A DNA stretch of 40,595 nucleotides from Myxococcales bacterium (GTDB lineage Bacteria; Myxococcota_A; Polyangia; Polyangiales; Houyiibacteriaceae), in NCBI GenBank assembly GCA_024640845.1, contig JAHEEE010000035.1, positions 1-40,595 of the forward strand. Reading direction: 5' to 3'. Below are positions 4,826-21,789 of the stretch, one piece after another. Made by a program: the position numbers and the translations under genes. How positions within the stretch are numbered: position 1 is the stretch's first letter; the number at the start of each line of letters is the position of its first letter. The notes beneath the pieces were generated by a model. The model was not told the DNA's origin. It ran no database searches and saw only the letters and a program-made list of their open reading frames with translations.

Positions 4826-5407
4826 CTAGCCTCCTAGGCCCCCGAAGCCCATGAAACTGACCGAGAGCAGTCCGGCCAGCATGAGGGCCAACGCGGTTCC
4901 CCTCGTCACTTCGGGCACCTCCGCGAGCTCGAGCTTCTCGCGGAGGCCCGCGATGAGCACGAGGGCCAGAGTGAATCCCGCTCCCGCGCCGAGCGCGTAG
5001 ACGATGCACTGGAGAAAACCGTAGCCCTTGTTGGTCTGAAAAAGCGCCAACCCGAGGATCGCGCAATTGGTCGTGATGAGCGGGAGGAAGATGCCGAGCG
5101 CCCGGAAGAGCGCGGGGCTGAACTTCTTGATGAACATCTCGACGAGCTGCACCGTGGACGCGATGACCGCGATGAACGAGATGAGCTTGAGATAGGGCGC
5201 GTCGATCGCCACGAGTAAGAGCTGAATCCCAAACGCACAGATCGAGCTCACAAACATGACGAAGGTCACGGCGCCTCCCATGCGGGCTGCCGTGTCGAGC
5301 TTCGATGAGACGCCGAGAAACGGACAGATGCCGAGGAAGTACGCCAGGACGAAGTTGTTCACGAGCGAGGCGTTGATGAAGATCGACCAAAGGGGCTCTT
5401 GGTTCAT
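4826..5407 (-). CDS. rnfA: Rnf electron transport complex subunit RnfA
   Basis: Integral membrane subunit of the ion-pumping Rnf complex (ferredoxin:NAD+ oxidoreductase). 193 residues with about six helices. Two conserved half-helix cysteines are present, in GICPFLG (near residue 29) and TTNCAILG (near residue 112); with the matching pair in RnfE they hold the intramembrane [2Fe-2S] centre known from Rnf structures. ATG at 5407 overlaps the rnfE stop by 4 nt (ATGA), giving translational coupling. It is followed after 5 nt by the small Cys-rich gene. Paralogous to RnfE and to NqrE. Confidence 0.96.
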   Translation of the reverse strand: MNQEPLWSIFINASLVNNFVLAYFLGICPFLGVSSKLDTAARMGGAVTFVMFVSSICAFGIQLLLVAIDAPYLKLISFIAVIASTVQLVEMFIKKFSPALFRALGIFLPLITTNCAILGLALFQTNKGYGFLQCIVYALGAGAGFTLALVLIAGLREKLELAEVPEVTRGTALALMLAGLLSVSFMGFGGLGG

Positions 5408-6060
5408 TGGGCCGCCTCCCCCGCGAGCGTCAGCGCGGCTGACTGTTCTTTCTTGGCTTTGCGCTGTTTCATCCAGTTGAAGAGCAGCAACCAGCCGGCA
5501 AGCGTGAAGAAACCGCCGCTCGGCAGGACCATCACGACCCAATCCTGAAAGGAATCGTGGAACAACTCGACGCCAAAGAGCGAGCCTGAGCCCAAGATCT
5601 CTCGCACCGCGCCGAGGCAGAGGAGGGCGAAGGCAAAGCCGATTCCCATCCCTAGGCCGTCCATCGTGGAGCGCACCACGGTGTTCTTGGACGCGAAAGC
5701 TTCCGCGCGACCGAGGATCAAGCAGTTGACCACGATCAGCGAAATGAACGCGCCGAGCGCCTTGTAGAGATCGAGGCTGATGGCCTGGATCACGTAGTCG
5801 ACCACGGTGACGAACGTTGCGATCACCAGAATGTAGGTCGCGATGCGAACCTCTTTGGGGATGAAGCTCCGGAGCAACGACACCACGATGTTGGACATGA
5901 TCAGCACGAAGGCGGTCGCCAAACCCATCGCGAGCGCGTTGATCGCGGTGTTCGACACGGCCAGGACTGGACACATTCCGAGCACCTGGACGAACACCGG
6001 GTTCTCTTTCCACAAACCCTTGATGAACTCGTCGGTGGTTGTCTTGGTCGAGGTCGCCAT
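5404..6060 (-). CDS. rnfE: Rnf electron transport complex subunit RnfE
   Basis: Membrane subunit paired with RnfA in the core of the Rnf complex. 218 residues with about six helices. The two family cysteines are seen in GMCPVLAVS (near residue 29) and VVNCLILGR (near residue 111), the RnfE half of the intramembrane iron-sulfur site. The C-terminus is a lysine-rich extension (MKQRKAKKEQ) expected in the cytoplasm. The ATG at 6060 starts 3 nt after the rnfG stop, and the stop overlaps rnfA. Homologous to NqrD. Confidence 0.96.
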   Translation of the reverse strand: MATSTKTTTDEFIKGLWKENPVFVQVLGMCPVLAVSNTAINALAMGLATAFVLIMSNIVVSLLRSFIPKEVRIATYILVIATFVTVVDYVIQAISLDLYKALGAFISLIVVNCLILGRAEAFASKNTVVRSTMDGLGMGIGFAFALLCLGAVREILGSGSLFGVELFHDSFQDWVVMVLPSGGFFTLAGWLLLFNWMKQRKAKKEQSAALTLAGEAAQ

Positions 6061-6063
6061 GCG

Positions 6064-6750
6064 CTACTCCTGCCCTTCGAAATCGGCACGCTTGGCATGC
6101 ATACGCGGAACCCAGAACTCGGCGCTCTGATCGAGGATGTTGGCGATGGCCTTCGACGAGATCGTCGCTCCGGTGATCCCATCCACCTGCCAAGGATGGG
6201 TCTTCTCGCCGTGCTTGACCGGTACGATCGCGTTCGCGAGCGTCGTCTGGTCGTCGGTCAACGATACGTCGAGGCGCTTGAAGTTTTCGAGAAAGTCGGG
6301 ATCGGTCTCGATCCTATCGCCAAGGCCTGGGGTCTCTTTGCTTTCGAGTACCCGAATCCCGACGATGGCGTCGTTCTCGAACGAATACCCGTAGATCAGC
6401 CGAATGACGTCCTGATACCCCATGCCATGGGCTTCCACGGCGATGCCCACCAGCGCGTGTTCGTCGTCGTAGCCCGCGTAGACCAGCTGCTCCCCCGCGT
6501 CCTTGCCCTCGGACACCTGAAAACCGTCGGGCTCCTGTAGGCGATAGGTCGTGCTGGTGACAGCTCCGGGAAGAACGTCGAAGATCGCCGCCTGAAGCGC
6601 CTCGGCCTTGTTCCGCTCGATCACGGGCAACGTCACCTGGTACACGCTGACGATGAGAAGCCCGCAGCATACGCCTATCCCGACCATGGCGCGGTACATG
6701 TGCCATGTGCTCGTCGGCGGCGCGCCTGCGCTGAGCTCGGCGTTGCTCAC
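6064..6750 (-). CDS. rnfG: Rnf electron transport complex subunit RnfG (covalent FMN)
   Basis: Single-helix subunit whose periplasmic domain carries covalently bound FMN and relays electrons in Rnf. 228 residues: N-terminal cytosolic tail, membrane helix at about 23-40, then the FMN_bind domain. The flavinylation motif reads GITGATISS (about 191-199), with Thr196 as the expected phosphoester site. Start chosen as GTG at 6750 because it overlaps the rnfD stop by 4 nt, the same coupling as in neighbouring pairs; an upstream GTG/ATG in frame would run deep into rnfD. No separate flavin transferase (ApbE) gene is visible in the window, so it must be supplied elsewhere. Confidence 0.95.
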   Translation of the reverse strand: MSNAELSAGAPPTSTWHMYRAMVGIGVCCGLLIVSVYQVTLPVIERNKAEALQAAIFDVLPGAVTSTTYRLQEPDGFQVSEGKDAGEQLVYAGYDDEHALVGIAVEAHGMGYQDVIRLIYGYSFENDAIVGIRVLESKETPGLGDRIETDPDFLENFKRLDVSLTDDQTTLANAIVPVKHGEKTHPWQVDGITGATISSKAIANILDQSAEFWVPRMHAKRADFEGQE

Positions 6751-7772
6751 GTCGATGCCTCCTTGCTCCTCGTCCCGTACACGGTCGGCCGGAACCATCG
6801 ATCGAGCTGAGGCGTGACCGCGTTGCCCAAGAGGATGGCGTACATCACGCCTTCGGGCAGGCCGCCCCAGATGCGAATCACTACCGTCACGACGCCGATG
6901 AGCGCACCGTAGACGTAGCAGCCGCGCGCGGTCATCGGGGAGCCCACCATATCGGTCGCCATGAACATGGCGCCAAGCATCAATCCTCCGGACAAAAGCA
7001 TGAAGGCTGGGGATGCGTAACTCGACGGGTCGGCGAGATGGAGAGCGCCGCTCAGCGCGATCACCGCGCCGAAGATCGCGACCGGAATGCGCCAGTTCAT
7101 CATGTTACGGGCGACGAGATAAATGCCGCCAAGCAAAATGAGCACGCTCGACGTTTCACCAGCGGACCCGCTGATGAAGCCCAATGCCAAGTCGACCGTT
7201 GCCGTCGTTTCGCCGCCAAACTTCCACGCAGCCAGAGGTGTCGCCGCTGTGATCGCATCGACCGTCGGCTGGGTGAACGGCAGGGTGAGGGTAGACGATG
7301 GGAGTGAAGAGAACCGATCCGGGCCGAACCCCGGGATCCAGGTGGTCATCGCGACGGGAAACGCCGCCTGGAGCACGGCTCGTCCCACCAGCGCCGGGTT
7401 GAACGTGTTGTATCCGAGCCCCCCGAACAACGCCTTGCCCATCGCCACGGAGATGACGCCCCCGACCGCAACCATCCACAGCGGCAGCGCCGGTGGCAGC
7501 ACCAGGCCGTACAGAAGGCCAGTGATCGTGACCGACCAATCCCCGATGGTGGTCGGTTTGCCCGACGCGCGGCAGATGAGGTGCTCGGTGAGCACGCAGG
7601 ACGCGAGCGCAACGGAGAGGGTCAGCAAGCCAGCGAGGCCAAACGCGAACACTGCGAACGCCGTCGTCGGAAGCAGCGCGAGCACGACGTTGAACATGAT
7701 CGTGTCGACGCTGTTGCCACTCAGAATGTGCGGCGACGTGCGAATCTCGAGTGTCTTGCCCGACGCCGGCAT
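6747..7772 (-). CDS. rnfD: Rnf electron transport complex subunit RnfD (covalent FMN)
   Basis: Polytopic subunit of Rnf homologous to NqrB, believed to carry the ion pathway. 341 residues, about ten helices. The covalent FMN motif is DAITAATPL (172-180), with Thr178 the expected attachment site; the C-terminal FMATDMVGSP segment is also typical. Start ATG at 7772 overlaps the rnfC stop by 1 nt (TAATG), and the stop overlaps rnfG. The N-terminal HILSG segment preceding the first helix fits the family start. Confidence 0.96.
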   Translation of the reverse strand: MPASGKTLEIRTSPHILSGNSVDTIMFNVVLALLPTTAFAVFAFGLAGLLTLSVALASCVLTEHLICRASGKPTTIGDWSVTITGLLYGLVLPPALPLWMVAVGGVISVAMGKALFGGLGYNTFNPALVGRAVLQAAFPVAMTTWIPGFGPDRFSSLPSSTLTLPFTQPTVDAITAATPLAAWKFGGETTATVDLALGFISGSAGETSSVLILLGGIYLVARNMMNWRIPVAIFGAVIALSGALHLADPSSYASPAFMLLSGGLMLGAMFMATDMVGSPMTARGCYVYGALIGVVTVVIRIWGGLPEGVMYAILLGNAVTPQLDRWFRPTVYGTRSKEAST

Positions 7773-9121
7773 TAGGCTGCCCCCGCTTTGTGCGCTGCGG
7801 CCTTTCGCACGGCCGCCTTCGAAGCGCGAAACCGTTGGACGAGTGGAATGTGCGATGGGCAGACGAAGGAGCAGGAGCCGCACTCGAAGCAGTCCATCAG
7901 GTTGTGCGCTTCTGCCATGACCGAGAACTCTTCGTTGGCGGCCAGCTTCCCGAGCAGGGCGGGGTCGAGGAAGATCGGGCAGGCGTCGACGCAGTAGCCG
8001 CATCGGATACACGGGTACACTTGGCTGTGCGTTCGTTCTGCAGCCGAGTCGGTGAAAGCAGTGACGCCGGAAGTGCCCTTGGTGATCGAGATCTCCAAGC
8101 TCGAGACGGCGGCGCCCATCATCGGGCCGCCTAGGAAAACCCGGTTCACGTCTTCCGCGACGCCAGCGTACTCGAGTAAGAAGCGAAGAGGCGTTCCGAT
8201 GGGGATACGGTAGTTGCCCTTCCGCCTCACGGCAGGGCCGGTCACGGTGATGACGCGCTCTTGAATCCCCCGCCCCTTGGGCAGCAGGCGACCGATCTCG
8301 GCCGTCGTGGCGACGTTGCAGCAGAGTGCCTGGATGTCCAAAGGAAGGCCGCCGGAAGGCACCTCTCGGCCGAGAAGGGCGGAGAACAGCATCTTCTCGG
8401 CCCCTTGGGGATACTTGACCTCGAGGACCTCGACCGTTCCGTTGATGTCGCTCGGGAAACGCTCCCGGAGATGAGCCGCCGCATCGGGCTTGTTGGCCTC
8501 GACCGCGATGATGACCTTCTCCGCGCCCGTTACTTTCAACAAGTAGCGGATTCCCATGAAAACGTCATCGCTCTGTTCGAGCATGACGCGGTGGTCGGTA
8601 GTGAGGAACGGCTCGCACTCGACCCCGTTGATGATCAGTGTGTCGACGACCTTGCCTTCGGGCACCTTGAGCTTTGCGTGTGTGGGGAACGCCGCGCCTC
8701 CAAGTCCGACCACGCCTGCGTCTTGAATCGCCGCAATGATCTCTTCGGGAGTCGACGTTTCGAGAGGGCAGGGGGTGCCGTCCAGAACTTCCTGTGTCGA
8801 GCCGGGAAACGGCTCCAAGTACACGGCCGGCACCATGCGGCCGCTGATACTCGGTGCGAGGGCGATCTTGCGTACCACGCCCGACGCAGAAGCGTGCATG
8901 GAGACCGACATGAAGCCGTCGGCGCGAGCGATCCGTTGACCGCGCCAGACCTCCTGCCCCTCAGCGACTTCTGGGATCGAGGGAGCCCCCATGTGCTGGA
9001 CCAGCGGGATGATGAGCAGTGGCGCAAAGGGGAACTGACGGATCGGCAGCCCGCTCGTCTCGTCTTTCGATTCCGGCGGGTGTACCCCGTGCCGAAAGGT
9101 CTTGGTTCCCAGGAGTCTCAT
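7772..9121 (-). CDS. rnfC: Rnf electron transport complex subunit RnfC (NADH/FMN, 2x[4Fe-4S])
   Basis: Peripheral cytoplasmic subunit that binds NAD(H) and FMN and exchanges electrons with RnfB. 449 residues: an N-terminal biotinyl-lipoyl-like domain (about 1-100), a nucleotide/FMN domain with GVVGLGGAAFPTHAKL (136-151) and NGVECEPFLTTDHRVM (165-180), then a SLBB region and two ferredoxin motifs, CIRCGYCVDACP (371-382) and CFECGSCSFVCP (411-422). The C-terminus is short; the long Ala/Lys repeats of enterobacterial RsxC are absent. ATG at 9121 has GAGG upstream. It follows the giant PFOR gene by 22 nt. Confidence 0.96.
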   Translation of the reverse strand: MRLLGTKTFRHGVHPPESKDETSGLPIRQFPFAPLLIIPLVQHMGAPSIPEVAEGQEVWRGQRIARADGFMSVSMHASASGVVRKIALAPSISGRMVPAVYLEPFPGSTQEVLDGTPCPLETSTPEEIIAAIQDAGVVGLGGAAFPTHAKLKVPEGKVVDTLIINGVECEPFLTTDHRVMLEQSDDVFMGIRYLLKVTGAEKVIIAVEANKPDAAAHLRERFPSDINGTVEVLEVKYPQGAEKMLFSALLGREVPSGGLPLDIQALCCNVATTAEIGRLLPKGRGIQERVITVTGPAVRRKGNYRIPIGTPLRFLLEYAGVAEDVNRVFLGGPMMGAAVSSLEISITKGTSGVTAFTDSAAERTHSQVYPCIRCGYCVDACPIFLDPALLGKLAANEEFSVMAEAHNLMDCFECGSCSFVCPSHIPLVQRFRASKAAVRKAAAHKAGAA

Positions 9122-9143
9122 CTGCCTCGTGCCGAGCCGCCGC

Positions 9144-12100
9144 TCAGTTGTATTTCTCGCCGCGTTTGATCCACTTTTCGATGCCTTTTTCGTTTCGGTT
9201 TCTCGGCAGGCCGGGGTGAATGACTCGCGCTGTGCAGCGTTCCGCGGCTTTGACCAAATCCTTGTACGACCCGGCTTCTGGGTTCTTGATGATCGCTTTC
9301 TTGTCCGCGTTGTACTCGAAGATTTTGGAGTTGATCTGAATGCACTCATCACAGGCGGTGCAGTTGACCGTGTCGATCCACGGCGCGGAGTAGTCGCCCG
9401 AGCTGCCGGCCGATGGAGCCGGAGCCGATGCGGCTGCCGATGCGGCTGCCGGAGCCGCCGCAGCTGGCGCGGCAGCGTTGTCCGCTCCTGGCTCGTCGGC
9501 GACCAATGCCAAGAGGCTGTCGTCGGAGCCGGAAGCGATTTGAAGCAGCTCGGACATCATCCTTCCGACCACATCTTGGCGGGCCTGCTCGACGAGCGCC
9601 TCGGTGTCTGGTTGGTCCTCGCTAGTGAAAGAGCGCAGCATTGTCCAGAAGTCTCGACGATCCTCGCACGACTCGACAATCGGCTGGCCGACCAGAAGGC
9701 GCGTGAGACGGTTCTCCTTGTCGACCATCCACACGTACGGGAACTGACCCTCACGATCGTCCTCGTCGAGCTCGAGGAACTCAGCAAGCGGGACCATATT
9801 CTCGTTCCAGGTGTCTGGTGGCGCGACTCGAAAATGCTTTCGGAAACGCGTCTCGGTCATCGCAAAGTCCGCAAAGGTCAGCGGCAGCTCCATCTCTTTT
9901 TCGACGCCGTCCTCCAGGTACTTGATCTTGTAGGTCGCCCAGTCCTCGTCTGGGGCCGGGTTGCCGTCCAAGTCGAAGCACTCCTGTGGCGTCTTGCCGG
10001 CGTCGGGGTCGTATCGGAAGAGGGGGTATGCCCTCGACTCGACCGCCAGCTTCGATTGGGCCGAGCTCATGTCGTCGCCGATGCCGTGCTCGGGTTGGCA
10101 GTTGCTGTAGAGGTTGAACAGGGCGGGCCGGCGAGCCTTCAGACCCTGGATGAAGCCTTCGATCATGTGGCTCGGGTGCGCAATGGTGCTTTGCATCACG
10201 TAGGTCGTCCGATGCGCCATGCCGATGAGCCCGATCTCCTTTCGCGGTTCCTGCTTGCCTTTGATCGCCTTCCCGTACTGCGCCATGTCCGAAATCTGGC
10301 CGATGAACCCTGACGTACACGCTTGCCCGCCCGTGTTGGAGTACACCTGCGTGTCGACGACCACGACCTTGATCGGTTTGCCCGATGCCATCAGGCGGGA
10401 GAGGTTCTGGAAACCGATGTCGTACATCGCTCCATCCCCACCGACCGCGACGACCGGCGGGCAGAGCTCCCACTCCTCGTCGCTGAACTGACGCCAGTCG
10501 AAGTAGGTGAGGAAATCGTCGTGCTCAGCGGGGTTGTACTTGCCCTCTAGCTCGAGCTCGGCGACGCGGAGCGCCTTGAAGCCTTCCGCCATCTTGGCCA
10601 TGTGCCCTTCGAAGATGCCCATGGCCATCGATGGCGAGTCCTGGAAGAGGTGATTCGACCAGGGGAACGGGTAGGGGTTGAAGGGATAGGTGCTGCCCCA
10701 AACGGAGGTGCACCCAGTGCTGTTGATCATCCCCATGCTGGTTCGGCCGCGGCCGGTGACGCCTTCGACGTACTTCCATTTGAGGTCCTGGAGCTTGGCG
10801 ACGAGCCCGCTCATCCTGTGCAGCCAATCTTGGTCGATCGGCTGACCCCCTCCCATGCTCTCCACACGTTCGGCGATCGCTGCGAGCGTGACGTCCCGAT
10901 CGCCGATGTCCGCGATCACCTTCGCGATGATCCCGGGGTCACTCACGTCGATTTCGCCAGCGAGCCGGAGCTGGATGTGCTTCTTCAGGCGATCGATGAC
11001 CTCGCTTATGTGATCGAGGTGCCTCGCGACTCGCGGCTTCATCAAGGCTTCGACCGTTGCGACGAAGAGGTGGATCGCCGTCTTTTCCGAGCAACCTAGG
11101 CACGCGCCATCACCGCTGGTGAACGGCAGGTAGTTCGACTTGTCGAGAAGGATGGACTCCAGCGTGCCGATGCCTTCTTCGAGATCATCGATTCGCATGT
11201 ACTTCTCGGGCGTGCTCGGCAAGTCGGTCCAGAGGTCCCAGTTGTCGCGCAGATGCTGCACCGATTCGGTGGTCTGCCTCATCGGGCGCAGCGCGTCGTC
11301 GTTGCATACTTCGACGCACTCCATACAGCCCTTGCAGGTGTAGGGGTTCACGGTGATCGAAAGCAGGCCGCCACTGCCCGGCTGGTCTTGTTCGGCCAAG
11401 GTGTAGTGCGGTCGCGTCAGCGCGAACTGAAACCCATTCAGCTCTTCTTTGAAGTACCCGAGCTCTTTTTCGAGCTCGTCTTTCTCGCTGCCTTGGAGCT
11501 CGCTCTGGCGCAGTGTCTGGTCCATGGCCTGGTCCATGAGGACGGTCACCGAGTCGCTCTCCTTCGACTCCTTGAAGAGAGCCCGAAGATTGCGTTCCAT
11601 CACTCTCACAGCTTTCGGCAGGTGTTTGACCTCGGCGCCGTGACCGTTCTTCCGTACCCGGTTGACGACGGTGTCGAGCACCTGCCCCACCTCGTTGACC
11701 AAACCTGGCAGAGCGGTATCGGGGCAGACCGTGTAACAATCCCCGCAGGCCGTGCAGTTCTCCGGGATCCACTTGGGGTGCTCGAAGCGAATGCCCGTCA
11801 TATCGCGAAACAACGCAGAGGAGGGCGGCATGATGCCGAGGCCGATGAAGGGATCCGCCAGGTTGTCGTTCCCGAGGCCCCGCGAATAGAAGTTGCCCGT
11901 CTGTTCCCAGAAACGATGGATGTCGGTCATCGGCGCCTTGCTCTGGGGAAGCGGCTTCGCCATCATCGGGAGCTGAAGCCCGGCGCGTTTTCCGTCCGCC
12001 TTCACCGCGCTGATCGCACCGGGGACGACCTCCGTGACCTGATCGAAGCCTCGCTTGACGACCCGGATGTTGTCTTCGACGACACGCTTGCCCTTGGACC

Positions 12101-14138
12101 CGAACTTGTCTTGGATCTGGTCGTGGATGGCTTGCAGGAGCTGCTCGTCGCTCAGCCCCGCCTTCTTCATCACCGGCGAGACCGCGAAGAACGCACCCTG
12201 GAAGGCGATGCCTTGCATCCGCAGCTGGAGATCCGAATCGGTGGCCTCTTCGCGCGCAATCTTGAACGCATCGAGGTAGTACACCTTGATCTCGTTGTCC
12301 CGAATGATCCTCTGGTAGATCGGTGGAATGCTTTCCCACATGGCTTCGGGCGACTCGGCGTCGCTTTGAATGATGAACACGCCGCCGCGCTTCAAACCCG
12401 CGAGCGCGTTCGTGTGCCCAAACACGTTCGGGTCCGGTGAGAGCACGACGTCGACGTAGAAGTACTCGCAGTTGACTTTGATCGGCTCGGGCGCAGCCGA
12501 AAGGTAGTAGGTCGTCGGTTGCCCCTTCTTCTCCGAGCCATACTTGGGGTTGGCCTTGATGTGATAGCCGAGCAGATCGAAGAGGGTCATCGCGAGGTTC
12601 TTGCCGGTCGTGATTGCACCCCAACCGCCGACGGAGTGAAAACGCACCGTGATGCTGTCCTTGGGCATCAGGTTGGGGTTCTCAGAGCCGCGCACGACCA
12701 GCTCTCTGACGTCGGGATAGGACTCCTCGATCGTCTGCTGGTAGATGTCCTGTTTGGGCGTGAGGGCCTCGTCCCGCAAGAAGTCGATAGAGAGGTAGAA
12801 CAGCTTTTTGCGCGCACCCCCGTCGATCATGTTCTCCACCGCGCCGACGAGCCCCTCGGGCTGAAGGTCTCGGCTGCCCATGCCGTACGAGCCGGAGTAA
12901 AGCGGCGGCGCGTCGGCGAGCGACTTGTATGAAGCGAGCTCGGGATAGGCCGGGTGCTTGGCGTCGGTTCCGTTCTCCAGGCACTTGCTGAGCGTCGCGC
13001 GGATCTCTCGCATGAGGGGCAAGTCGGCCGCGAGGGGCTGGTCGAGTCGCTCGAGCACGGTGACGCCCTTCTTCCCGCGCAAGATGTGCCCGATGAGGTC
13101 GCTCGGGAACGGCCGGAACATGAGCATGTCCACCACGCCGACTTTGAGACCCCGCGTCTCCCGGAGATAGTCCACGACGGCTTCGGCCGATGGAATCATG
13201 CTGCCCTGGCCGACGATGAGGTAGTCGGCGTCGTCGGCGCGATAGCTCATCACGCGCGCATAGCGCCTGCCGGTGAGCGCGTAGTACTCCTCGAAGGCCC
13301 GATCGGTGAGCGCCTGGATGTGATCGAAGAAGAACGGGCGCTGAGCGGCGACGCTCTGCATGTAGGAATCCTGGTTTTGAACCAAACCGGACATCACTGG
13401 ATTGTCGACGTCCCACAGGAGCGGGATGCGGCGGCGGGTTTCGCCATAGATGATCCTTTGGGCGGGCGTCGGCGTCTCGATGATGTCGTCGGGGCGCCCG
13501 AGATACTCGGCGATGAGCTCGCGCTCCGGCACGAGGATCGATTCGATGAGGTGCGTGGTCAGGAAGCCGTCTTGAGCGATGATTCCCGGGGTCAGCGCAA
13601 GCTCTGCGATCCGGTGGCTGATGACATTCAGATCGGCCGCGCCCTGCGCGTTTTTGGCGAACATCTGAAAGAAGCCCACATCGTCGACGCAATGGTAGTC
13701 GTCGTGGCCGGCGTGCACGTTGAGGGTGGCTTTCGTCATCGCTCGTGCGCCGACGTTGAGAACATAGGTCAACCGCTTGCCCGTTGCCGCGTAGAGCGAC
13801 TCGTGCATGTACGCGATCCCCTGACCGGAGGAGAAGTTCGCCGCGCGCATACCGGTCATCGCCATGCCCGCTGTCACCGCAGCCGCTGCGTGCTCGCCTT
13901 CGGGTTCGACGAAGATCAGCGGGCGGCCGGAGATGTTGAGATGCCCGGCGGCCGCGGCTTCCGCCCAGAACTCGCCCATCTGCGTGGACGGCGTGATCGG
14001 GTAGGCGCCTGCAGCGTCGGTAGACTCACGCTCGCACATGATGACGGCGGAGTTGCCATCGAGCGCCGCGGTCGAACCGGGATACTTGAACTTGTTCCCG
14101 CTGTCTTTTTTTCTCTTGCCGAACAGTCGTGGGGACAT
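9144..14138 (-). CDS. Giant pyruvate:ferredoxin oxidoreductase (NifJ-type) with tethered C-terminal ferredoxin
   Basis: Oxidises a 2-oxoacid (pyruvate most likely) with CoA and passes electrons through Fe-S clusters to ferredoxin. 1664 residues against about 1200 for classic PFOR; residue numbers below start at the GTG at 14147. Seen in order: pyrimidine domain (YPITPST, 49-55), gamma domain (SVGGWGAITTGKN, 505-517), two ferredoxin motifs CTACGDCYTVCP (798-809) and CKGCMECVEVCN (938-949) with a long charged spacer, TPP domain with CLGCSE (1016-1021), STGC (1143-1146), GGDGAMYDIG (1236-1245) and NTGGQ (1271-1275). An Ala/Pro/Ser linker (about 1550-1585) leads to a single-cluster ferredoxin domain (CTACDEC at 1597, last Cys near 1638). 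I prefer the ATG at 14138 with AGGT 6 nt upstream. It lies between rnfB and rnfC, which implies direct delivery of electrons to Rnf. Confidence 0.93.
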   Translation of the reverse strand: MSPRLFGKRKKDSGNKFKYPGSTAALDGNSAVIMCERESTDAAGAYPITPSTQMGEFWAEAAAAGHLNISGRPLIFVEPEGEHAAAAVTAGMAMTGMRAANFSSGQGIAYMHESLYAATGKRLTYVLNVGARAMTKATLNVHAGHDDYHCVDDVGFFQMFAKNAQGAADLNVISHRIAELALTPGIIAQDGFLTTHLIESILVPERELIAEYLGRPDDIIETPTPAQRIIYGETRRRIPLLWDVDNPVMSGLVQNQDSYMQSVAAQRPFFFDHIQALTDRAFEEYYALTGRRYARVMSYRADDADYLIVGQGSMIPSAEAVVDYLRETRGLKVGVVDMLMFRPFPSDLIGHILRGKKGVTVLERLDQPLAADLPLMREIRATLSKCLENGTDAKHPAYPELASYKSLADAPPLYSGSYGMGSRDLQPEGLVGAVENMIDGGARKKLFYLSIDFLRDEALTPKQDIYQQTIEESYPDVRELVVRGSENPNLMPKDSITVRFHSVGGWGAITTGKNLAMTLFDLLGYHIKANPKYGSEKKGQPTTYYLSAAPEPIKVNCEYFYVDVVLSPDPNVFGHTNALAGLKRGGVFIIQSDAESPEAMWESIPPIYQRIIRDNEIKVYYLDAFKIAREEATDSDLQLRMQGIAFQGAFFAVSPVMKKAGLSDEQLLQAIHDQIQDKFGSKGKRVVEDNIRVVKRGFDQVTEVVPGAISAVKADGKRAGLQLPMMAKPLPQSKAPMTDIHRFWEQTGNFYSRGLGNDNLADPFIGLGIMPPSSALFRDMTGIRFEHPKWIPENCTACGDCYTVCPDTALPGLVNEVGQVLDTVVNRVRKNGHGAEVKHLPKAVRVMERNLRALFKESKESDSVTVLMDQAMDQTLRQSELQGSEKDELEKELGYFKEELNGFQFALTRPHYTLAEQDQPGSGGLLSITVNPYTCKGCMECVEVCNDDALRPMRQTTESVQHLRDNWDLWTDLPSTPEKYMRIDDLEEGIGTLESILLDKSNYLPFTSGDGACLGCSEKTAIHLFVATVEALMKPRVARHLDHISEVIDRLKKHIQLRLAGEIDVSDPGIIAKVIADIGDRDVTLAAIAERVESMGGGQPIDQDWLHRMSGLVAKLQDLKWKYVEGVTGRGRTSMGMINSTGCTSVWGSTYPFNPYPFPWSNHLFQDSPSMAMGIFEGHMAKMAEGFKALRVAELELEGKYNPAEHDDFLTYFDWRQFSDEEWELCPPVVAVGGDGAMYDIGFQNLSRLMASGKPIKVVVVDTQVYSNTGGQACTSGFIGQISDMAQYGKAIKGKQEPRKEIGLIGMAHRTTYVMQSTIAHPSHMIEGFIQGLKARRPALFNLYSNCQPEHGIGDDMSSAQSKLAVESRAYPLFRYDPDAGKTPQECFDLDGNPAPDEDWATYKIKYLEDGVEKEMELPLTFADFAMTETRFRKHFRVAPPDTWNENMVPLAEFLELDEDDREGQFPYVWMVDKENRLTRLLVGQPIVESCEDRRDFWTMLRSFTSEDQPDTEALVEQARQDVVGRMMSELLQIASGSDDSLLALVADEPGADNAAAPAAAAPAAASAAASAPAPSAGSSGDYSAPWIDTVNCTACDECIQINSKIFEYNADKKAIIKNPEAGSYKDLVKAAERCTARVIHPGLPRNRNEKGIEKWIKRGEKYN

Positions 14139-14186
14139 CGGAATCACCTATGGGGCTCTTGCGGTCGGTTCTAGATTGGGGCGTCT

Positions 14187-15053
14187 CTAAGTCGGGGCGT
14201 CGCGTAGCGTGCCCTTGCGAATGATCTTCTTGGCGGCGGGGCCTTTCGTCGGGCCCGACTTTTCATCTATCCAGACGATAGCCCCGGTTGGACATCGTTC
14301 AATCGGCTTCCGCGTTTTGTGCGGCCGGGTATAGTCTACGACCGGAAGGTTCTTCCGGATGGTGATGAGACCTTGCGGCGCATCCATTTCGCATCGACCG
14401 CAGGCAGTGCATGCGACCTCGCAGTCCTCGAGGATCTCGTCGCCGGCTTCGAGGGAGCTGCAAGCAACCCACAAGCGATGACTTTGCTTGTGGAGGGAGA
14501 ACAAATCCTTGGGGCAGACTTCGACACAATCGCCACAGGCGGTGCACAAATCCTCGTCCACCACCGGCAGTCCGTGCGCGTTCATGTGGATCGCGTCGAA
14601 GTCACAGGCGACATCGCAATCGCCCAAGCCGAGGCAGCCCCAGAAGCAGCCTTTGCCCCCGCCAGCGACGCGAGCCGCCGCACGGCAAGTCTGCTCGCCG
14701 TGATATCTCGCGTGATTGCGGGCTACGTTGTCGCCTCCCGCGCATGCGAGCCGGGCGACGACTTTCTCCGCGGCTCCGACGTCGACCCCCAAAAAGTGGG
14801 CAATTTGCGTTCTCTCCTCGCCCGAGCTGACCGTGCACAGGGCAGGTTGTGCGTTGCCTTTCGTCAGGGCCTCGGCAAAGGGACGACACCCCGGGAAGCC
14901 GCATGCGCCGCAGTTGGCATGGGGCAACATCTCCTCCACGATGTCGATTCGCGGATCCTCATAGACGTAGAGCTTCTTGTTCGCGACCGCCAAGGCGGTT
15001 GCGAGAAGAACGGTGAGACTGGTGATCGCCCCGACTGCCGTGAGAAACAGCAT
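14187..15053 (-). CDS. rnfB: Rnf electron transport complex subunit RnfB (multi-cluster ferredoxin type)
   Basis: Electron entry subunit of Rnf that accepts electrons from reduced ferredoxin. 288 residues: N-terminal membrane helix (about 5-25), the four-Cys domain NCGACGFPGC plus a distal Cys (about 48-73), then ferredoxin-type motifs: CxxxC-x5-CxxxC in CFWGCLGLGDCDVAC, CTACGDCVEVCP, and a third, CTACGRC, followed by EMDA where a Cys is expected. Where long RnfB proteins carry a fourth CxxCxxC this one has YTRPHKTRKPIERCP with only the last Cys. ATG at 15053 chosen; a TTG sits immediately before it. The gene is separated from the rnfCDGEA block by the PFOR gene, unlike the common rnfABCDGE and rnfCDGEAB orders. 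Confidence 0.94.
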   Translation of the reverse strand: MLFLTAVGAITSLTVLLATALAVANKKLYVYEDPRIDIVEEMLPHANCGACGFPGCRPFAEALTKGNAQPALCTVSSGEERTQIAHFLGVDVGAAEKVVARLACAGGDNVARNHARYHGEQTCRAAARVAGGGKGCFWGCLGLGDCDVACDFDAIHMNAHGLPVVDEDLCTACGDCVEVCPKDLFSLHKQSHRLWVACSSLEAGDEILEDCEVACTACGRCEMDAPQGLITIRKNLPVVDYTRPHKTRKPIERCPTGAIVWIDEKSGPTKGPAAKKIIRKGTLRDAPT

Positions 15054-15093
15054 CAATAGGTCCGCCGATCATAGCGCCTTGTCGCGCTAACAC

Positions 15094-16575
15094 TCAAGGG
15101 TTCATGGCCGCGCCCGAAAGGCGAGCGACCAACCTTCGCACGGCGTTGGTTACCGCCGTCTTCTCTCGTTGGAGAGCCTTGTCCTCCATCTCTCGTCGCA
15201 GACTCTCGAGTTGTGCGTCACGTTCGGCGCTCAACTCTCGCCGAAGCGCGATTTGCGAAGCGTTGACGTAGGGGTTGTCGACGCCCGCGAGCTCCTGAAA
15301 GGTGCGCCAGAGGTGCATCCGCTCCGCGCATTGAAGCACCAGGCTCCGGCCGACGCTCTTGCGAACCGCGTTCCCATCGCTGCCTGCCACCCAAATGAAG
15401 GGCGTTTTCCCGACTCGTTGAGGGCGCGTGAGCTCCAAGAACTCGACCAAGGGCACGGGAATGCCGGTATTGGCGGGCAATTCGTCGAGCTCCGAGGCGA
15501 GCTCGGACTCCGACGCGGCGAAGTGGGCGAAGGTAAACGCTTCTTGCACTTCGGTGGGCTGATCTTCGGAGTCGAGACCGGGGAGCGCTTCGGTGGTCCA
15601 CAGATTCTCGAGCGATGGATTGCCCGACAGATCAAAGCAGTTGACGAAGCGCTCATCTCGATCCGGGTCGTACACGCACATCGGAAAGGCCCGCGCACGC
15701 ACGGCGCGCTCGGCCCTTGCGACAAAGGCATCGTCGGACTCGTCATTCCGGGGACCGAGGATCGAGATCACACTGGGCCGCGGCGACGCTAGCGCAGCCA
15801 GCATGTGCTCGCGAAAATTTTGCGCGGTCAAAGTTGCTTGGAGGAAGTAGACCCCCCGCATCGCGAGCGGGAGCGTTTCAACCGTCATTCGTGCTGGCAC
15901 GCGAATGTCGGAGTCGGCGCGGTGGTGATCGTGGAAGCCCGAGCGGAGGGCAAGCGCTTTGATCGGCATGCCGCTCTCGAGCAGCCACATCAGTTCGTGG
16001 AGCCGCGCACCGTCATCGGTATCGAAGTTCACCAAGACCAGGAAGGGAGGACATAGTCGAAGCTCCCCGGGGCCGAGCTCGCGCCAGGTGAACTCGGCGA
16101 AGACCGCGTCGTGCAGCTGGGCCTCGTACTTCGAGCGGATCTCGAGTTGGGCGATGCGCTCCGCCCGAAACACGCGTGCGAGCCGACTAAAATGCGCCTC
16201 TGCAAGCGCCCGAATCTCTTCATCCGGCCTGTCGATGTCGATCAAGGCGGCATCGAGCGGCGCGTTCGACCATTGCTTGCGCAGCTCGAGGAGCAGCGGA
16301 ATCAGCGCCTCCACTCGTTCGCGGCGCTCCGGCGCCATGGCCCGCGAGCGTGTGCTGCCTTCGAGCACGCGGGAAAGGGAGCCGACGTCCAGGCTGCTTG
16401 CAGCCAGGGGCCCGAGAGCGCGCTCTAGCTGATCGGGATCGTGTCCATGCCGATGGTGCTCGTCCAGTCCTAGAAGCCCGTGCAACTCGTCGATCGTCTC
16501 GGCAAGGGCGTCGACGAGCTCTTTGCAACGCTCGCGCCAGACCTCTTCGACCGATGGTAGAACCTGTTGTTTCAT
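15094..16575 (-). CDS. Degenerate, TPP-less paralogue of the PFOR C-terminal domain (putative pseudoenzyme)
   Basis: I recognise no named family, but the protein reads as a diverged copy of residues about 1035-1520 of the adjacent PFOR. Matching landmarks in the same order: IAQLEIRSKY / VAELELEGKY, RLCPP / ELCPP, SGMPIK / SGKPIK, AFPMCVYDPD / AYPLFRYDPD, CFDLSGNP / CFDLDGNP, FTFAHFA / LTFADFA, LVEFLEL / LAEFLEL and TPFIWV / FPYVWM. The catalytic parts are gone: GGDGAMYDIG is replaced by VNFDTDDGAR (182-191), NTGGQ by a His-rich HDHHRAD, and the CLGC and STGC cluster cysteines are absent. 493 residues, no signal peptide or membrane helix; the tail (about 440-493) is a charged helix. ATG at 16575 chosen, 14 nt after the korB stop. 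Likely a structural or regulatory partner of the oxidoreductases; that role is inference. Confidence 0.75.
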   Translation of the reverse strand: MKQQVLPSVEEVWRERCKELVDALAETIDELHGLLGLDEHHRHGHDPDQLERALGPLAASSLDVGSLSRVLEGSTRSRAMAPERRERVEALIPLLLELRKQWSNAPLDAALIDIDRPDEEIRALAEAHFSRLARVFRAERIAQLEIRSKYEAQLHDAVFAEFTWRELGPGELRLCPPFLVLVNFDTDDGARLHELMWLLESGMPIKALALRSGFHDHHRADSDIRVPARMTVETLPLAMRGVYFLQATLTAQNFREHMLAALASPRPSVISILGPRNDESDDAFVARAERAVRARAFPMCVYDPDRDERFVNCFDLSGNPSLENLWTTEALPGLDSEDQPTEVQEAFTFAHFAASESELASELDELPANTGIPVPLVEFLELTRPQRVGKTPFIWVAGSDGNAVRKSVGRSLVLQCAERMHLWRTFQELAGVDNPYVNASQIALRRELSAERDAQLESLRREMEDKALQREKTAVTNAVRRLVARLSGAAMNP

Positions 16576-16589
16576 GGCGGGGATACGAA

Positions 16590-17546
16590 TCAGCTCACGG
16601 TGTAGTTGTCCATCGCGGCGTCGAGACGCTGAAGGAAGGTCTCGTAGTCGGGCTTGGCCTTGCGCTGCCATCGGATCTCCTCGTAGGCAGGGACCTCGGG
16701 GTTTTGATAGAGGAGACCCATCGGGGCGGGGTCGACCGTGACGGCAACTCGCTGTGCTTCGTTGATGTTGCGATGGTCGTGGGGCTGGGCGGGGCCGCGA
16801 TTGAGGAGCGAGGGATGAATGGGGATGCCGTCCTCGTGCTCGAGGAAGACGACTGGAAAGTGCACCCCGCCCTCACCGAACGCCGTAGGCATGAACACGG
16901 GACACCGCTGCAGGATTCGAACGAACGAGAGCCCGTGATGGTCCCACGCCTTTTCGATGGTTTCGTCGAGGTGAGCCGGCAGCCAGGTTGCGGTTTGGGC
17001 GAGGAACGAGACGTTGGTCATTCCCATGACCGCGCTCAACGGATTGAGAGGATGAAGGTAGGTGCCCCGCGGCGTCGTGTTGGTTTTCCAACCGTCGGGA
17101 GTGGTGGGCGAAGCCTGCATCTTCGTCAGTGCGTAGACCTCGTTGTCGAGTACCAGCACGACGGCATTGATGTTGTAGCGGATGGCATGCAGCCAGTGGT
17201 TGCCACCGATGCTGAAGCAGTCCCCATCGCCCATGATCGCGATGACCGGCAGCTCGGGGCGGGATAGGCGTACGCCGGTCGCAATGGGTAGCGCCCGGCC
17301 GTGAATGCCGTGAAAACCGTAGGTGTTGAGATAGTGGGGGAGGCGGCTCGAGCATCCGATCCCGGACACTGCGACTGCGTTCTCGGGTTCGACGTTGTTC
17401 TTCCGCAGGACGCGTTGGAGCGCAGCGAGCACACCATGGTCGCCGCAGCCCTTGCACCATCGAGGCCGCTCGGCATCGTAATCCTCGAGCGTGTGGGTGT
17501 CGGCCGCGCAGACCTCGAGCAAGCTCTCTTTCGCAATCGCAGACAT
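16590..17546 (-). CDS. korB: 2-oxoacid:ferredoxin oxidoreductase beta subunit (KorB-like)
   Basis: TPP-binding beta subunit of a 2-oxoacid:ferredoxin oxidoreductase, catalysing CoA-dependent oxidative decarboxylation with ferredoxin as acceptor. 318 residues. Seen: CKGCGDHG (31-38) and IGCSS (Cys65), plus RCPVF (Cys215), the four cysteines of the single [4Fe-4S] cluster; the TPP motif MGDGDCFSIGGNH (105-117) and LDNEVYALTKMQ with the conserved NxxY. The separate alpha/beta layout and the residues resemble 2-oxoglutarate (Kor) enzymes more than pyruvate enzymes, but substrate is not certain. The ATG at 17546 follows the korA stop by 2 nt, so the two are tightly coupled. Lacks its own ferredoxin subunit, which the tethered ferredoxin of the PFOR or a free ferredoxin could replace. 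Confidence 0.92.
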   Translation of the reverse strand: MSAIAKESLLEVCAADTHTLEDYDAERPRWCKGCGDHGVLAALQRVLRKNNVEPENAVAVSGIGCSSRLPHYLNTYGFHGIHGRALPIATGVRLSRPELPVIAIMGDGDCFSIGGNHWLHAIRYNINAVVLVLDNEVYALTKMQASPTTPDGWKTNTTPRGTYLHPLNPLSAVMGMTNVSFLAQTATWLPAHLDETIEKAWDHHGLSFVRILQRCPVFMPTAFGEGGVHFPVVFLEHEDGIPIHPSLLNRGPAQPHDHRNINEAQRVAVTVDPAPMGLLYQNPEVPAYEEIRWQRKAKPDYETFLQRLDAAMDNYTVS

Positions 17547-17548
17547 CG

Positions 17549-19453
17549 TCAACTGACTCCTTCGACTGCGGTGAGCCGCTGGGCCGGGCTTTTGGTGTCC
17601 ATCGTGGCGAGGATGCGTTTCGCCTCGTCGAGGATCTCGACCGGCATGTAGGGGCGGCCGGGCACGTTGGCAAAACAGTCGATGTCGAGGAGCGTGGCGG
17701 CCCGAAGGACCCACGCCAACTGGCCGTAGCGCCGGTTCTCTTCGGTGATGAGGGGGGCCTGCGGATCATCGCTGTAGTTGAGCTCGACCGTGATGACGCG
17801 GCGGAACTTGGTGAAGATGTCTTTGAGCCCAGGCGGGAGCGGACTGAGGAATTGCAGATGCACGGAGGACACCGAGTGCCCCGCGCCACGCGCCATGTCC
17901 ACGGCTTCTTCGATCGCGCCGCGCGTGCTTCCCCAACCCACAAGCAGCAGCTCGCCTTCCGGCGCACCGTGCACCCTAGGCCGTTGGAGCGTCTGTTGCA
18001 GTGCGGCCAACTTGCGGCTCCGCATGGCGTGGCCGCGCTTGTTCCGCTCGGCGTCGTAGCAGGCCTTCCCGTCGCGGTCGTGGTTCAGCGAGGTGGTGAC
18101 GCCCATGCCGCCGGGTTGCCCCGGGATCAGGCGTTCGGAGAGCCCCGTCGTCGGGTCCCACGCGTAGGGGAGAGCGTTCGTCGGCACTGGGCTCAGGTCG
18201 AGTTGGGAGCGCGGCGGCGTCGCGAAGACGTTAGGGCGATCGAAGAGCTGCTGGCCGGTCGCGAGGTTCGCGTCCGACAAGACGATGACCAGCATGCGAA
18301 ACTCCTCGGCGATCTTACGGGCGACCGAAAGGATGTAGTAGCACTCCTCGATGGTGCTCGGCGCGAGGACCACTTTGGGGGCGTCGCCCGGAGCTCCGTA
18401 GAGCGCATGAAGCAAATCGGATTGCTCGATCTTCGTGGGTAGACCCGTGCTTGGTCCGCCGCGCTGAACATCCACGATGACCAGTGGTGTCTCGGTCATG
18501 ACGGCTAAGCCTTGGAACTCGGCCTTGAGGGCCATCCCCGGTCCCGAGGTGATCGTCAGCGCCGTCTTACCCGCATACGAGGCTCCGAGTGCGACGCCGA
18601 TGGCGGCGATTTCATCCTCTGCCTGGTGCACGAAGCCGCCGAAGTCCTCGAAGAGGTCCGACAGCGCGTGCGATGCGGAGGTTGCCGGGGTGATCGGATA
18701 CATCGAGCAAAGCTCGAATCCGGCAGCGATGGCTCCTAACGCCAACGCGGTGTTCCCGTTCATGGCGACTTTGGGGACATCGGTCGGGACCGCGTTGATC
18801 TCGAAGCATTGTTCGAGGTTGGCGAGCCCGTATTCGTAGCCGGCGCCCGCTAGCTTGACGGCCAGGTCGACGACCTGCTTCGATTTGCCCTTGAAGATCT
18901 TGCGAATCACCTCCTGGAGGACCAACACGTCTTTGCTGTAGAGCGCGCACAGGAGGCCGACGGCAAACATGTTCTTGCCTTGTTGCGCATCCTCGACGTG
19001 GCGCAGAGTCTCTCGTTGGAGGGGAATCTCGAGGATAGTCGAGCCCCGCGCTCGGAACTGTTCGACTACGTCGCGATAGGAGACACGGTAATTCTCGTTC
19101 TCATGAGTCGCCCACTGGTCGTCGATGAGCACGAGGACGTCGTCGGCGAGGCTCTCGGCCTGCAGCCGGGAAAGGAGAGCCATCTCGTTGAACGCCAGCA
19201 CGACGTTTGCGAGATTGCCGGCGTTCGTGACCTGGCTGCGCTCGGCAAGACGGATTCGGTTTCCGCTCGCGCTCCCGGTGGTGTGCGGCGGGGGCCGGAT
19301 CTCCGACGGGATGATCTCGACGGTCCAGAGGCCGTTGCCGGCTTTGGCGCAGAGCTGGGCAAACGCGATGGCGGCTTTTTGCGCACCCTCGCCGGCGTCG
19401 CTCACGATTTCGACGGTGTGCTCTGGCAACGAGATGCGGCGAGGTCTAGTCAC
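17549..19453 (-). CDS. korA: 2-oxoacid:ferredoxin oxidoreductase, fused gamma-alpha subunit (KorA-like)
   Basis: Fused gamma and alpha subunits of the KorAB enzyme. 634 residues: N-terminal gamma domain (about 10-190, starting VEIVSDAGEGAQKAA and including NVVLAFNEMALLSRL), then the alpha pyrimidine domain with MYPITPATSASHAL (251-264), SGPGMALKAEFQGLA (303-317) and the GPSTGLPTKIEQSDL segment (333-347), which is the usual CoA/TPP signature. The C-terminal third is the transketolase-like domain with LLVGWGST. The start is a GTG at 19453; no strong ribosome site is visible, so the first few residues are uncertain. First gene of the 12-gene minus-strand operon, divergent from the channel gene at 19705. 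Confidence 0.92.
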   Translation of the reverse strand: MTRPRRISLPEHTVEIVSDAGEGAQKAAIAFAQLCAKAGNGLWTVEIIPSEIRPPPHTTGSASGNRIRLAERSQVTNAGNLANVVLAFNEMALLSRLQAESLADDVLVLIDDQWATHENENYRVSYRDVVEQFRARGSTILEIPLQRETLRHVEDAQQGKNMFAVGLLCALYSKDVLVLQEVIRKIFKGKSKQVVDLAVKLAGAGYEYGLANLEQCFEINAVPTDVPKVAMNGNTALALGAIAAGFELCSMYPITPATSASHALSDLFEDFGGFVHQAEDEIAAIGVALGASYAGKTALTITSGPGMALKAEFQGLAVMTETPLVIVDVQRGGPSTGLPTKIEQSDLLHALYGAPGDAPKVVLAPSTIEECYYILSVARKIAEEFRMLVIVLSDANLATGQQLFDRPNVFATPPRSQLDLSPVPTNALPYAWDPTTGLSERLIPGQPGGMGVTTSLNHDRDGKACYDAERNKRGHAMRSRKLAALQQTLQRPRVHGAPEGELLLVGWGSTRGAIEEAVDMARGAGHSVSSVHLQFLSPLPPGLKDIFTKFRRVITVELNYSDDPQAPLITEENRRYGQLAWVLRAATLLDIDCFANVPGRPYMPVEILDEAKRILATMDTKSPAQRLTAVEGVS

Positions 19454-19704: not shown

Positions 19705-21789
19705 TTGAAGCTACGAACACTCGTACTCGTCCTGGTGACCATCGGCGCAGCCGGGCTAACCGTGTACTCGATCGCCGACTACCTGCGTTATAACCAGGAA
19801 CGCCAGGAGAGGAGCATCGAGCTCGGTCAGCGAGCGGGCATTCACGTGGCCGAAGCGCTCGATGCAACGCTGTTCGAGATCGCGGGGCGGGCGCGTGAGT
19901 ATGCCGCCGAAATTGCGGACATCGACTCCGAGGCCGGTCTCTTGGAGAGCATCGAGCGGGAGAGCCGACGCTTTGCGCTCGTGTCGGGTGTAACGGTTGC
20001 CTTCGAGCCTGGCGCGTTCGCTGGCAAGGAGCGGTACGCGCCGTTTTTCAACAAGGCGCGTGGTGAGTTCCAGTTCGTGGAGGACACGTACGACTACAGG
20101 TCGAGGAAGCTCGAGACCGCCCAGTGGTACACGCGCGTCGTCGAATCGAGGCAGGCGCAGTGGTCGGCGCCTTACTACGCGGAGGCGGCGGAGACGATGG
20201 TGGTCGATTACGGGGTGCCCGTCGCGGATGAACAAGGTCGAGTCACCGGAGTGGTCGACTACACGATTTCGTTGAGCGATTTCACCCGCATCGTGGACTC
20301 GCTCAGCGTAGGTGAGGCGGGGTACGGCTTCACCTACGACCCGAACGGTACGATTCTGTCCCATCCGAATCCCATCTACCTGCTCGAGAACGTATTCAGG
20401 CTCACCGATGGCAAGGACGAAGCCATCTTGAGAGCGATGCGGGAGGATGCGGAAGGGGTCGTGGCCTACAACAGCACCTATACCTACAAGTACTCCTGGT
20501 TCTTTTTCAGGGAGCTCGAGTCCACGGGCTGGAAGAGCGTGCTCGTATTCGCCGAGGACGACTTGCTTGGGGCATCGCATGCTGGGCGGCGCAAGATCAT
20601 CCATATCGGGATGGGCATTGGGACCCTCTTGCTGGCGCTGTTGGCGTTCGTCCAAGGGATCGACGGCTTCAGCCGTGTCGAGCTCTGGCGCATGGTCGTG
20701 CTCAGCTCGCTGGTGATTTGCGGCAACATCGTTCTCATTTGGTATTTGAACCTGACCACCGACTTTTCGCGCTTCGACGGCGACGTCGAGCGCATCGTCA
20801 ACGAAAGCATTCTCAACAAATACACGGATCAATACGACGACGAGCTTCACAAGCTCGTCAACGCCCGCTACCACAAAGTCCCCACCGGGATCTTCATCGA
20901 GTCCTATGAGCTGTCTTCGTTCGAGGCCAGCCTGATCGGGAAGTTGTGGATGAAGTACCCGAAAGACCTCTACGAAAGCGCACCGCCAGCGTTCTATTTC
21001 CCCGATGTCTCAGCGCGGGAGACGCGCGGGCTCGTGAGCGACAAACTCTCTGAAGTCGAATACGAGGACTATGTGCTGGTGACCTGGCGGTTCCGAGTGA
21101 CGGCCGAGCAGGACTTCAGCTACCGGCAGTTCCCGTTCGAGCAGAACGACATTCGCCTAGACGTCCTCTATCCCGACTTCAGCAAGAACATCCTGCTGGC
21201 GCCGGATCTGGACAGCTACGCCATCCTCAATCCGTCCGTGAAGCCAGGGATGAATCCGAACATCACCGTCCCCTCTTCCGAGACGATCGCTTCCTTCTTT
21301 GCGCTACGCACCATGGAATTCAAATCGACGTTCGGCGGCGACCGGTTGGTGAAGACTCATCCGATGCTGAGCTTCAACATGGTTGTGAAGCGCATCTACC
21401 TGAATCCCTTCATCGCCAACATGATCCCCATCCTGATCGTGGCGCTGATCATGTTCGTCATGCTCTACGTGTCCTCCAATCAGGAGGACGGTCGTTCCGG
21501 GCTCACCACGATGAATGTCATCCAGAGCTCCGCGGGATTCCTGTTCATCCTGTTGCTGGCGCACGTGAACGAACGAAATCGTATCGAGACGCCCGAGATC
21601 GCCTACATCGAGCTGTTCTATTTCTCGATGTACCTCTACATCACGCTGCAAACCCTCGCGCTGGCAACGATGTTTCGCGGGCTCGATTGGAAGCTGTTTC
21701 GCTACGAAGACAACCTGATCCTGAAGCTCTCGTTCTGGCCCATGCTACTCACGATCTGGTACGTCTTCACGCTGGCGAGGTTCTACTAG
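19705..21789 (+). CDS. Cache-domain sensor fused to a pentameric ligand-gated ion channel (GLIC-like)
   Basis: Predicted ligand-gated ion channel subunit with an extra sensor. 694 residues. TM1 at about 4-22; double-Cache-like periplasmic domain about 30-290 (WY at 141-142, SAPYY, YGVPVADEQGRVTGVVDY); TM2 about 297-317; TM3 about 328-350; then a pLGIC extracellular domain with QFPFEQNDIRL (475-485), the Pro-loop signature, and NILLAPDL (495-502), which resembles NIVLAVDL of GLIC; M1 about 563-590 with the conserved Pro in NMIPIL; M2 about 600-622; M3 about 631-655 after ETPEIAY; M4 about 671-692. The topology is self-consistent: both sensor domains are periplasmic. Start is TTG at 19705 with no clear ribosome site. 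Divergent from the korA operon. Ion selectivity and ligand are unknown. Confidence 0.85.
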   Translation: MKLRTLVLVLVTIGAAGLTVYSIADYLRYNQERQERSIELGQRAGIHVAEALDATLFEIAGRAREYAAEIADIDSEAGLLESIERESRRFALVSGVTVAFEPGAFAGKERYAPFFNKARGEFQFVEDTYDYRSRKLETAQWYTRVVESRQAQWSAPYYAEAAETMVVDYGVPVADEQGRVTGVVDYTISLSDFTRIVDSLSVGEAGYGFTYDPNGTILSHPNPIYLLENVFRLTDGKDEAILRAMREDAEGVVAYNSTYTYKYSWFFFRELESTGWKSVLVFAEDDLLGASHAGRRKIIHIGMGIGTLLLALLAFVQGIDGFSRVELWRMVVLSSLVICGNIVLIWYLNLTTDFSRFDGDVERIVNESILNKYTDQYDDELHKLVNARYHKVPTGIFIESYELSSFEASLIGKLWMKYPKDLYESAPPAFYFPDVSARETRGLVSDKLSEVEYEDYVLVTWRFRVTAEQDFSYRQFPFEQNDIRLDVLYPDFSKNILLAPDLDSYAILNPSVKPGMNPNITVPSSETIASFFALRTMEFKSTFGGDRLVKTHPMLSFNMVVKRIYLNPFIANMIPILIVALIMFVMLYVSSNQEDGRSGLTTMNVIQSSAGFLFILLLAHVNERNRIETPEIAYIELFYFSMYLYITLQTLALATMFRGLDWKLFRYEDNLILKLSFWPMLLTIWYVFTLARFY

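Follow-up and report, generated by a model that had tools for sequence, protein, structure and literature searches.

The stretch of DNA analysed here (the window; 40,595 nucleotides) encodes a 493-residue protein, P0001 (15094–16575, minus strand), which our analysis shows to be a predicted pseudoenzyme under constraint, descended from domain VI of PFOR. Its partnership with KorAB is well supported. We give an even chance to the further proposal that P0001 would serve one KorAB type as a dedicated third subunit without catalytic activity, adapting this KorAB to a PFOR-family electron conduit on Rnf. Based on its sequence relationships, P0001 is a shortened representative of a broader, unnamed group of putative PFOR-derived pseudo-subunits that are tied to KorAB and, in most loci of the phylum, appear to be tied to Rnf as well.

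Descent of P0001 from PFOR domain VI

The P0001 reading frame runs on the minus strand from an ATG at 16575, 14 nt behind the korB stop, to a stop at 15094, and its start is shared with orthologues, which have the same MK-x-Q beginning. A plus-strand reading of the same interval was ruled out because it contains stops. Gene order on the minus strand is KorA (17549–19453), a fused gamma-alpha OAFO subunit that scores above the TIGR03710 cut-off and has YPITP intact; KorB (16590–17546), an OFOR beta subunit in which the TPP motif (GDGDC) and the CxxC/C cluster motifs are intact; P0001; RnfB (14187–15056), with FeS and ferredoxin domains; a long PFOR of 1663 aa (9144–14147), with every catalytic motif intact and two ferredoxin-type clusters; RnfC (7772–9124); RnfD (6747–7780); RnfG (6064–6798); RnfE (5404–6060); RnfA (4826–5407); and an FNR-like FAD/NAD-binding flavoprotein (3727–4608). 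Within the PFOR, the domain VI region homologous to P0001 is encoded at 9579–11039 and a C-terminal single-cluster ferredoxin tail at 9210–9380; P0001 lacks such a tail, while its A-type relatives (described below) have one. To our knowledge, rnfB and rnfC are not separated by a PFOR or pseudo-PFOR gene in standard Rnf operons.

Two other genes of the window, both on the plus strand, have features of their own. The TRAP-type large permease at 675–2228 ends in an acidic C-terminal tail (2010–2213) encoded by a 36-base unit (LDLDALEGDDEE) that is repeated 5.7 times in tandem. The protein at 19705–21789 has a Cache sensor domain, and its C-terminal part, for which no Pfam or PDB sequence match was found, resembles several membrane helices; judged by eye only, the product is possibly a Cache-linked ligand-gated channel.

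In BLASTP, residues 123–435 of P0001 align with residues 1173–1509 of the window PFOR (29% identity, 145 bits, E = 1e-40), and profile–profile comparison of 11 P0001 orthologues with 27 PFORs (hhalign) lengthens this co-linear match to 407 columns (E = 3e-49). A preliminary description of this DNA had put the co-linear span at about PFOR residues 1035–1520; the profile comparison indicates that this was essentially right, with the N-terminal third visible at profile level only. All of the shared motifs that it named were recovered (LCPP, SGxPIK, YDPD, CFDLxGNP, TFAxFA, EFLEL and PFIWV/FPYVWM), and the losses that it reported are real: the TPP motifs GDG...N and NTGGQ are missing from 11 of 11 sequences (P0001 and 10 orthologues), and the cysteines of the proximal [4Fe-4S] cluster are gone, with no CxGC, no STGC and no fourth Cys. 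Only C175 and C313 are invariant among the cysteines of the 11 P0001 orthologues, and these are probably structural, since both also occur in the window PFOR (in LCPP and CFDL).

Searches of Pfam and NCBIfam returned no significant family match for P0001, including none to POR_N, PFOR_II, POR or Fer4, and for these two collections the statement that P0001 belongs to no named family holds. The OFOR beta models TIGR02177 and PF02775, whose TPP motif P0001 also lacks, gave no match at E 0.1. A Pfam HTH_18 match was dismissed as chance (17 bits vs a cut-off of 33.6), and a PDB sequence search with the P0001 orthologue profile gave no match. Among the features of TIGR02176-type PFORs, P0001 has the fold and descent of domain VI and lacks domains I–III and the dicluster domain.

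The predicted P0001 fold (mean pLDDT 64, moderate) is closest to PFOR domain VI (6cio; Z 11.2 over 225 residues, 5.6 Å) and then to OFOR beta subunits (Z 8–10), above all else; the unrelated fold that the preliminary description had named as refuting evidence was not what the prediction gave. Residues 1–350 are predicted to match domain VI of the PFORs of Desulfovibrio africanus (1b0p) and Moorella thermoacetica (6cin/6cio), with co-linear motifs, which we attribute to common descent via the long PFOR. Unlike these enzymes, P0001 is without the TPP motif, the proximal-cluster cysteines and domains I–V, and it has an extra C-terminal coiled coil. The TPP-domain fold is likewise that of OFOR/KorAB beta subunits (Magnetococcus 6n2n, H. 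pylori OorB 8ys5 and oxalate oxidoreductase beta 5c4i), but P0001 is predicted to be non-catalytic and is encoded besides a normal, intact KorB. The codon-level comparison proposed earlier gave a dN/dS of 0.25–0.38 for the closest P0001 pairs, which indicates that the protein is constrained and not a relic, although this constraint is weaker than that on KorB (0.08–0.29). The earlier suggestion of a pseudoenzyme is thus upheld, as one derived from PFOR domain VI and under constraint.

KorAB as the partner within the genus

This KorB type and P0001 are present or absent together in 19 of 19 genomes of the genus, with fragments of both in G006 and G014 scored as present. Wherever both genes are readable in the genus, P0001 follows KorB. 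In at least four genomes (G004, G005, G011 and G012), the KorA-KorB-P0001 trio is encoded at a distance from Rnf and PFOR, and in G003, where the trio is divergent from RnfB-PFOR, P0001 is still behind KorB. A second KorAB type (KorB ~47%) had no P0001-like neighbour in the three loci read. Homologues lying mostly far from any oxidoreductase gene had been named in advance as evidence against a role in the complex; what we found is that P0001 stays with KorAB.

A fixed position between korB and rnfB, from which the preliminary description had argued for a fixed role, was rejected, since the trio is unlinked from Rnf in several genomes; the fixed role stands, with KorB as the only constant neighbour. 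Although P0001 shares a gene neighbourhood with the Rnf complex (RnfABCDGE) in the window, it is not an Rnf subunit, which would always be encoded in the rnf operon: the trio is off rnf in G004, G005, G011, G012 and L004.

Among the 10 genomes at least 90% complete, seven have the full set of KorAB, P0001, RnfB and PFOR, and three have none of these (Fisher p 0.008 for joint presence or absence, ancestry not being corrected for). RnfB and PFOR occur without P0001 only in G002 and G009, and PFOR alone in G010, all three of them 80–82% complete; the trio was not found in these genomes, which suggests that Rnf-PFOR may not need P0001. The idea that P0001 travels with PFOR was disfavoured on the basis of the same three genomes. 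Each congener has one RnfB locus, and G002 has a second, partial match. Gene distances in G013 and G014 were given no weight, as these are single-contig genomes of 81% and 66% completeness; on both contigs (G013:C1 and G014:C1) the distances look unreliable, with pieces of PFOR far apart.

Relatives and locus types across the phylum

A profile search with P0001 found relatives, the A family, throughout the phylum. Of 377 genomes sampled from the phylum, 43 have this KorB type, at 44 loci in all, and the gene after it belongs to the A family in 34 of the 39 testable loci, that is, those not cut off by a contig end (the window included, and the X proteins described below counted as A-family). 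All five exceptions come from genus g143, in which A is encoded elsewhere in the genome and Rnf is present in all five. At two loci of this genus (L105 and L106, in G218 and G186, respectively), A-type proteins are unlinked from KorAB, with KorAB and Rnf elsewhere in the genome; the A-type gene of L105 lies beside MgsA, exonuclease VII and kinase genes.

In type (i) loci, RnfB is followed by a live long PFOR that ends in a ferredoxin tail, by RnfC to RnfA, and then usually by the FNR-like gene, which closes these clusters and was not found in those of type (ii). Type (ii), the commonest, has the order KorA, KorB, A, RnfB, B, RnfC to RnfA. Here A combines a dead PFOR domain VI, to which remnants of earlier domains are sometimes attached, with a single-cluster ferredoxin tail. 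B is a full-length dead PFOR: YPITP, the CoA-domain motif, GDG, NTGGQ and the cysteines of the proximal cluster have been lost, the two ferredoxin-type clusters are retained, and there is no tail. Type (iii) consists of KorA, KorB, X (~345 aa), RnfB, a live tailed PFOR and RnfC to RnfA. The likeness of X to A appears only in profile–profile comparison (96.6%, E 5e-10, 257 columns), co-linear motifs and synteny; a plain HMMER search for X proteins found none above noise. In several genomes (G315, G384, G141 and G283), type (i) is accompanied by type (ii), or an Rnf locus with a live PFOR by a KorAB-A locus.

B proteins of ~1400–1500 aa adjoin RnfB/RnfC in the KorAB loci L097–L104, L113, L045 and L046, and X takes the slot of P0001 between KorB and RnfB in L128, L129, L130 and L131. 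In the window, in L115, L120, L122, L123, L124 and L128–L131, and in an uncultured Opitutales MAG, rnfB and rnfC flank the gene of a live long PFOR. Many genomes across the phylum share this gene order, and it looks as though PFOR belonged to the Rnf assembly. The Opitutales MAG also has the KorA-KorB-P0001 trio, on a contig of its own (KorA 77%, KorB 75% and P0001 43–45%); elsewhere it encodes RnfB-PFOR-RnfC-G-E-A, with the PFOR at 61–62%.

The single-cluster ferredoxin tail is found at the C-terminus of full-length A proteins and in none of the P0001 orthologues. It is carried by A where the partner is a dead B, and by PFOR where the adaptor is tail-less (P0001 or X), with no exception in ~18 loci in which both partners are visible, a count that has few independent evolutionary events behind it.

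In a tree of domain VI, live PFORs, B and P0001 formed separate groups, and P0001 grouped with A, apart from both PFOR and B (UFB 97). A site-heterogeneous model (C20) supported the side uniting P0001 and A at 100/100 and placed P0001 beside the A protein of G380 (93/77), although the order within this group is unsure because its branches are long. Synteny independently agrees with the grouping, and P0001 resembles the A family both in its tree placement and in being the next gene after KorB. The RnfB of the window matches most type-(i) loci of distant families at 66–73% and type-(ii) loci, those of its own order included, at 47–55%; its KorA matches type (ii) at 50–57% vs 35–36% for the second KorAB type. 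Since its Rnf resembles type (i) and its KorAB type (ii), we read the window as a type-(i) PFOR-Rnf cluster together with a reduced type-(ii) KorAB-adaptor pair.

Proposed role and significance

We propose that the domain VI of a long PFOR gave rise to P0001, that its binding of TPP and Fe-S was lost, and that it may have been retained for docking or adaptor use. P0001 would bind KorAB and enable it to dock to the PFOR-family protein that accompanies RnfB/RnfC; this docking to PFOR/Rnf we infer. Having no redox centre, P0001 cannot itself carry electrons. Those of KorAB would not be released on free ferredoxin but would pass to the ferredoxin-type clusters and tail of PFOR and from there to RnfB. 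In relatives with a dead Rnf-linked PFOR (B), the same adaptor would bear the ferredoxin tail, and in the genus of the window, in which the live PFOR carries the tail, the adaptor could for this reason have been cut down to the dead domain alone. The KorAB-linked and PFOR-family proteins would then form one assembly needing one tail, with the live active site on KorAB, on PFOR or on both, which would be the simplest account of the complementary distribution of tails. Of the scaffold suggested in the preliminary description, linking PFOR with KorAB or Rnf, the adaptor function thus remains plausible, with KorAB and not PFOR as the partner. Nothing positive was found in favour of 2-oxoacid sensing by P0001, also suggested there.

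The concordance of KorB and P0001, their constant adjacency and the trios that stand by themselves in several genomes would also fit a subunit that serves KorAB only and does not touch PFOR or Rnf, with a part in assembly, stability, protection from oxygen or the control of activity. We regard this as a credible but rather doubtful alternative: over most of the phylum, KorB and RnfB have the A-family gene between them, and its product has a ferredoxin tail, which implies electron transfer, and the whole set is kept or lost jointly in near-complete congeners. A mixed dimer with PFOR, the leading idea of the preliminary description, or a P0001 that fills the domain VI position on PFOR, would draw on the common fold and the 29% identity to PFOR domain VI. 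It is nonetheless disfavoured as the main role, and improbable in our judgement, because the gene follows KorAB: PFOR occurs without P0001 in the three genomes noted above (80–82% complete), KorB never does so in the genus, and P0001 is downstream of KorB even where PFOR is distant. Within the genus, P0001 evolves faster than KorB (55–61% vs 81–87% identity), and the stepwise shortening from A to P0001 could likewise point to a decaying, functionless remnant; however, dN/dS values of 0.25–0.38, a frame that is open in nearly all copies and retention in two phyla make this very improbable indeed.

As an adaptor for KorAB, P0001 would be comparable to the PorD/KorD delta subunits, which are small ferredoxin-like OFOR subunits. 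Both are extra subunits encoded with a 2-oxoacid oxidoreductase, and the A-type relatives of P0001 have a ferredoxin tail; in contrast, P0001 is derived from domain VI, unrelated to PorD/KorD and without a cluster. A literature search at the level of titles and abstracts found no description of such a component.

Rnf is usually described as being fed electrons by diffusible ferredoxin. We suggest, tentatively and at somewhat short of an even chance, that this phylum builds Rnf supercomplexes to which a 2-oxoacid oxidoreductase is directly attached. One version would have a live PFOR whose gene lies between those of RnfB and RnfC; in the other, KorAB would be docked via a gutted PFOR retained in two parts, an adaptor made of the dead domain VI (A, here P0001) and a body that is dead but bears clusters (B). 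In both, electrons would reach the ion pump without free ferredoxin. If true, P0001 would clearly exemplify how a domain of one enzyme can lose catalysis and be put to new use as an adaptor that connects a different enzyme with a respiratory ion pump, and 2-oxoacid oxidation could be wired to Rnf. The live and dead versions found side by side in G315, G384, G141 and G283 would then constitute a natural experiment in which each step is testable.
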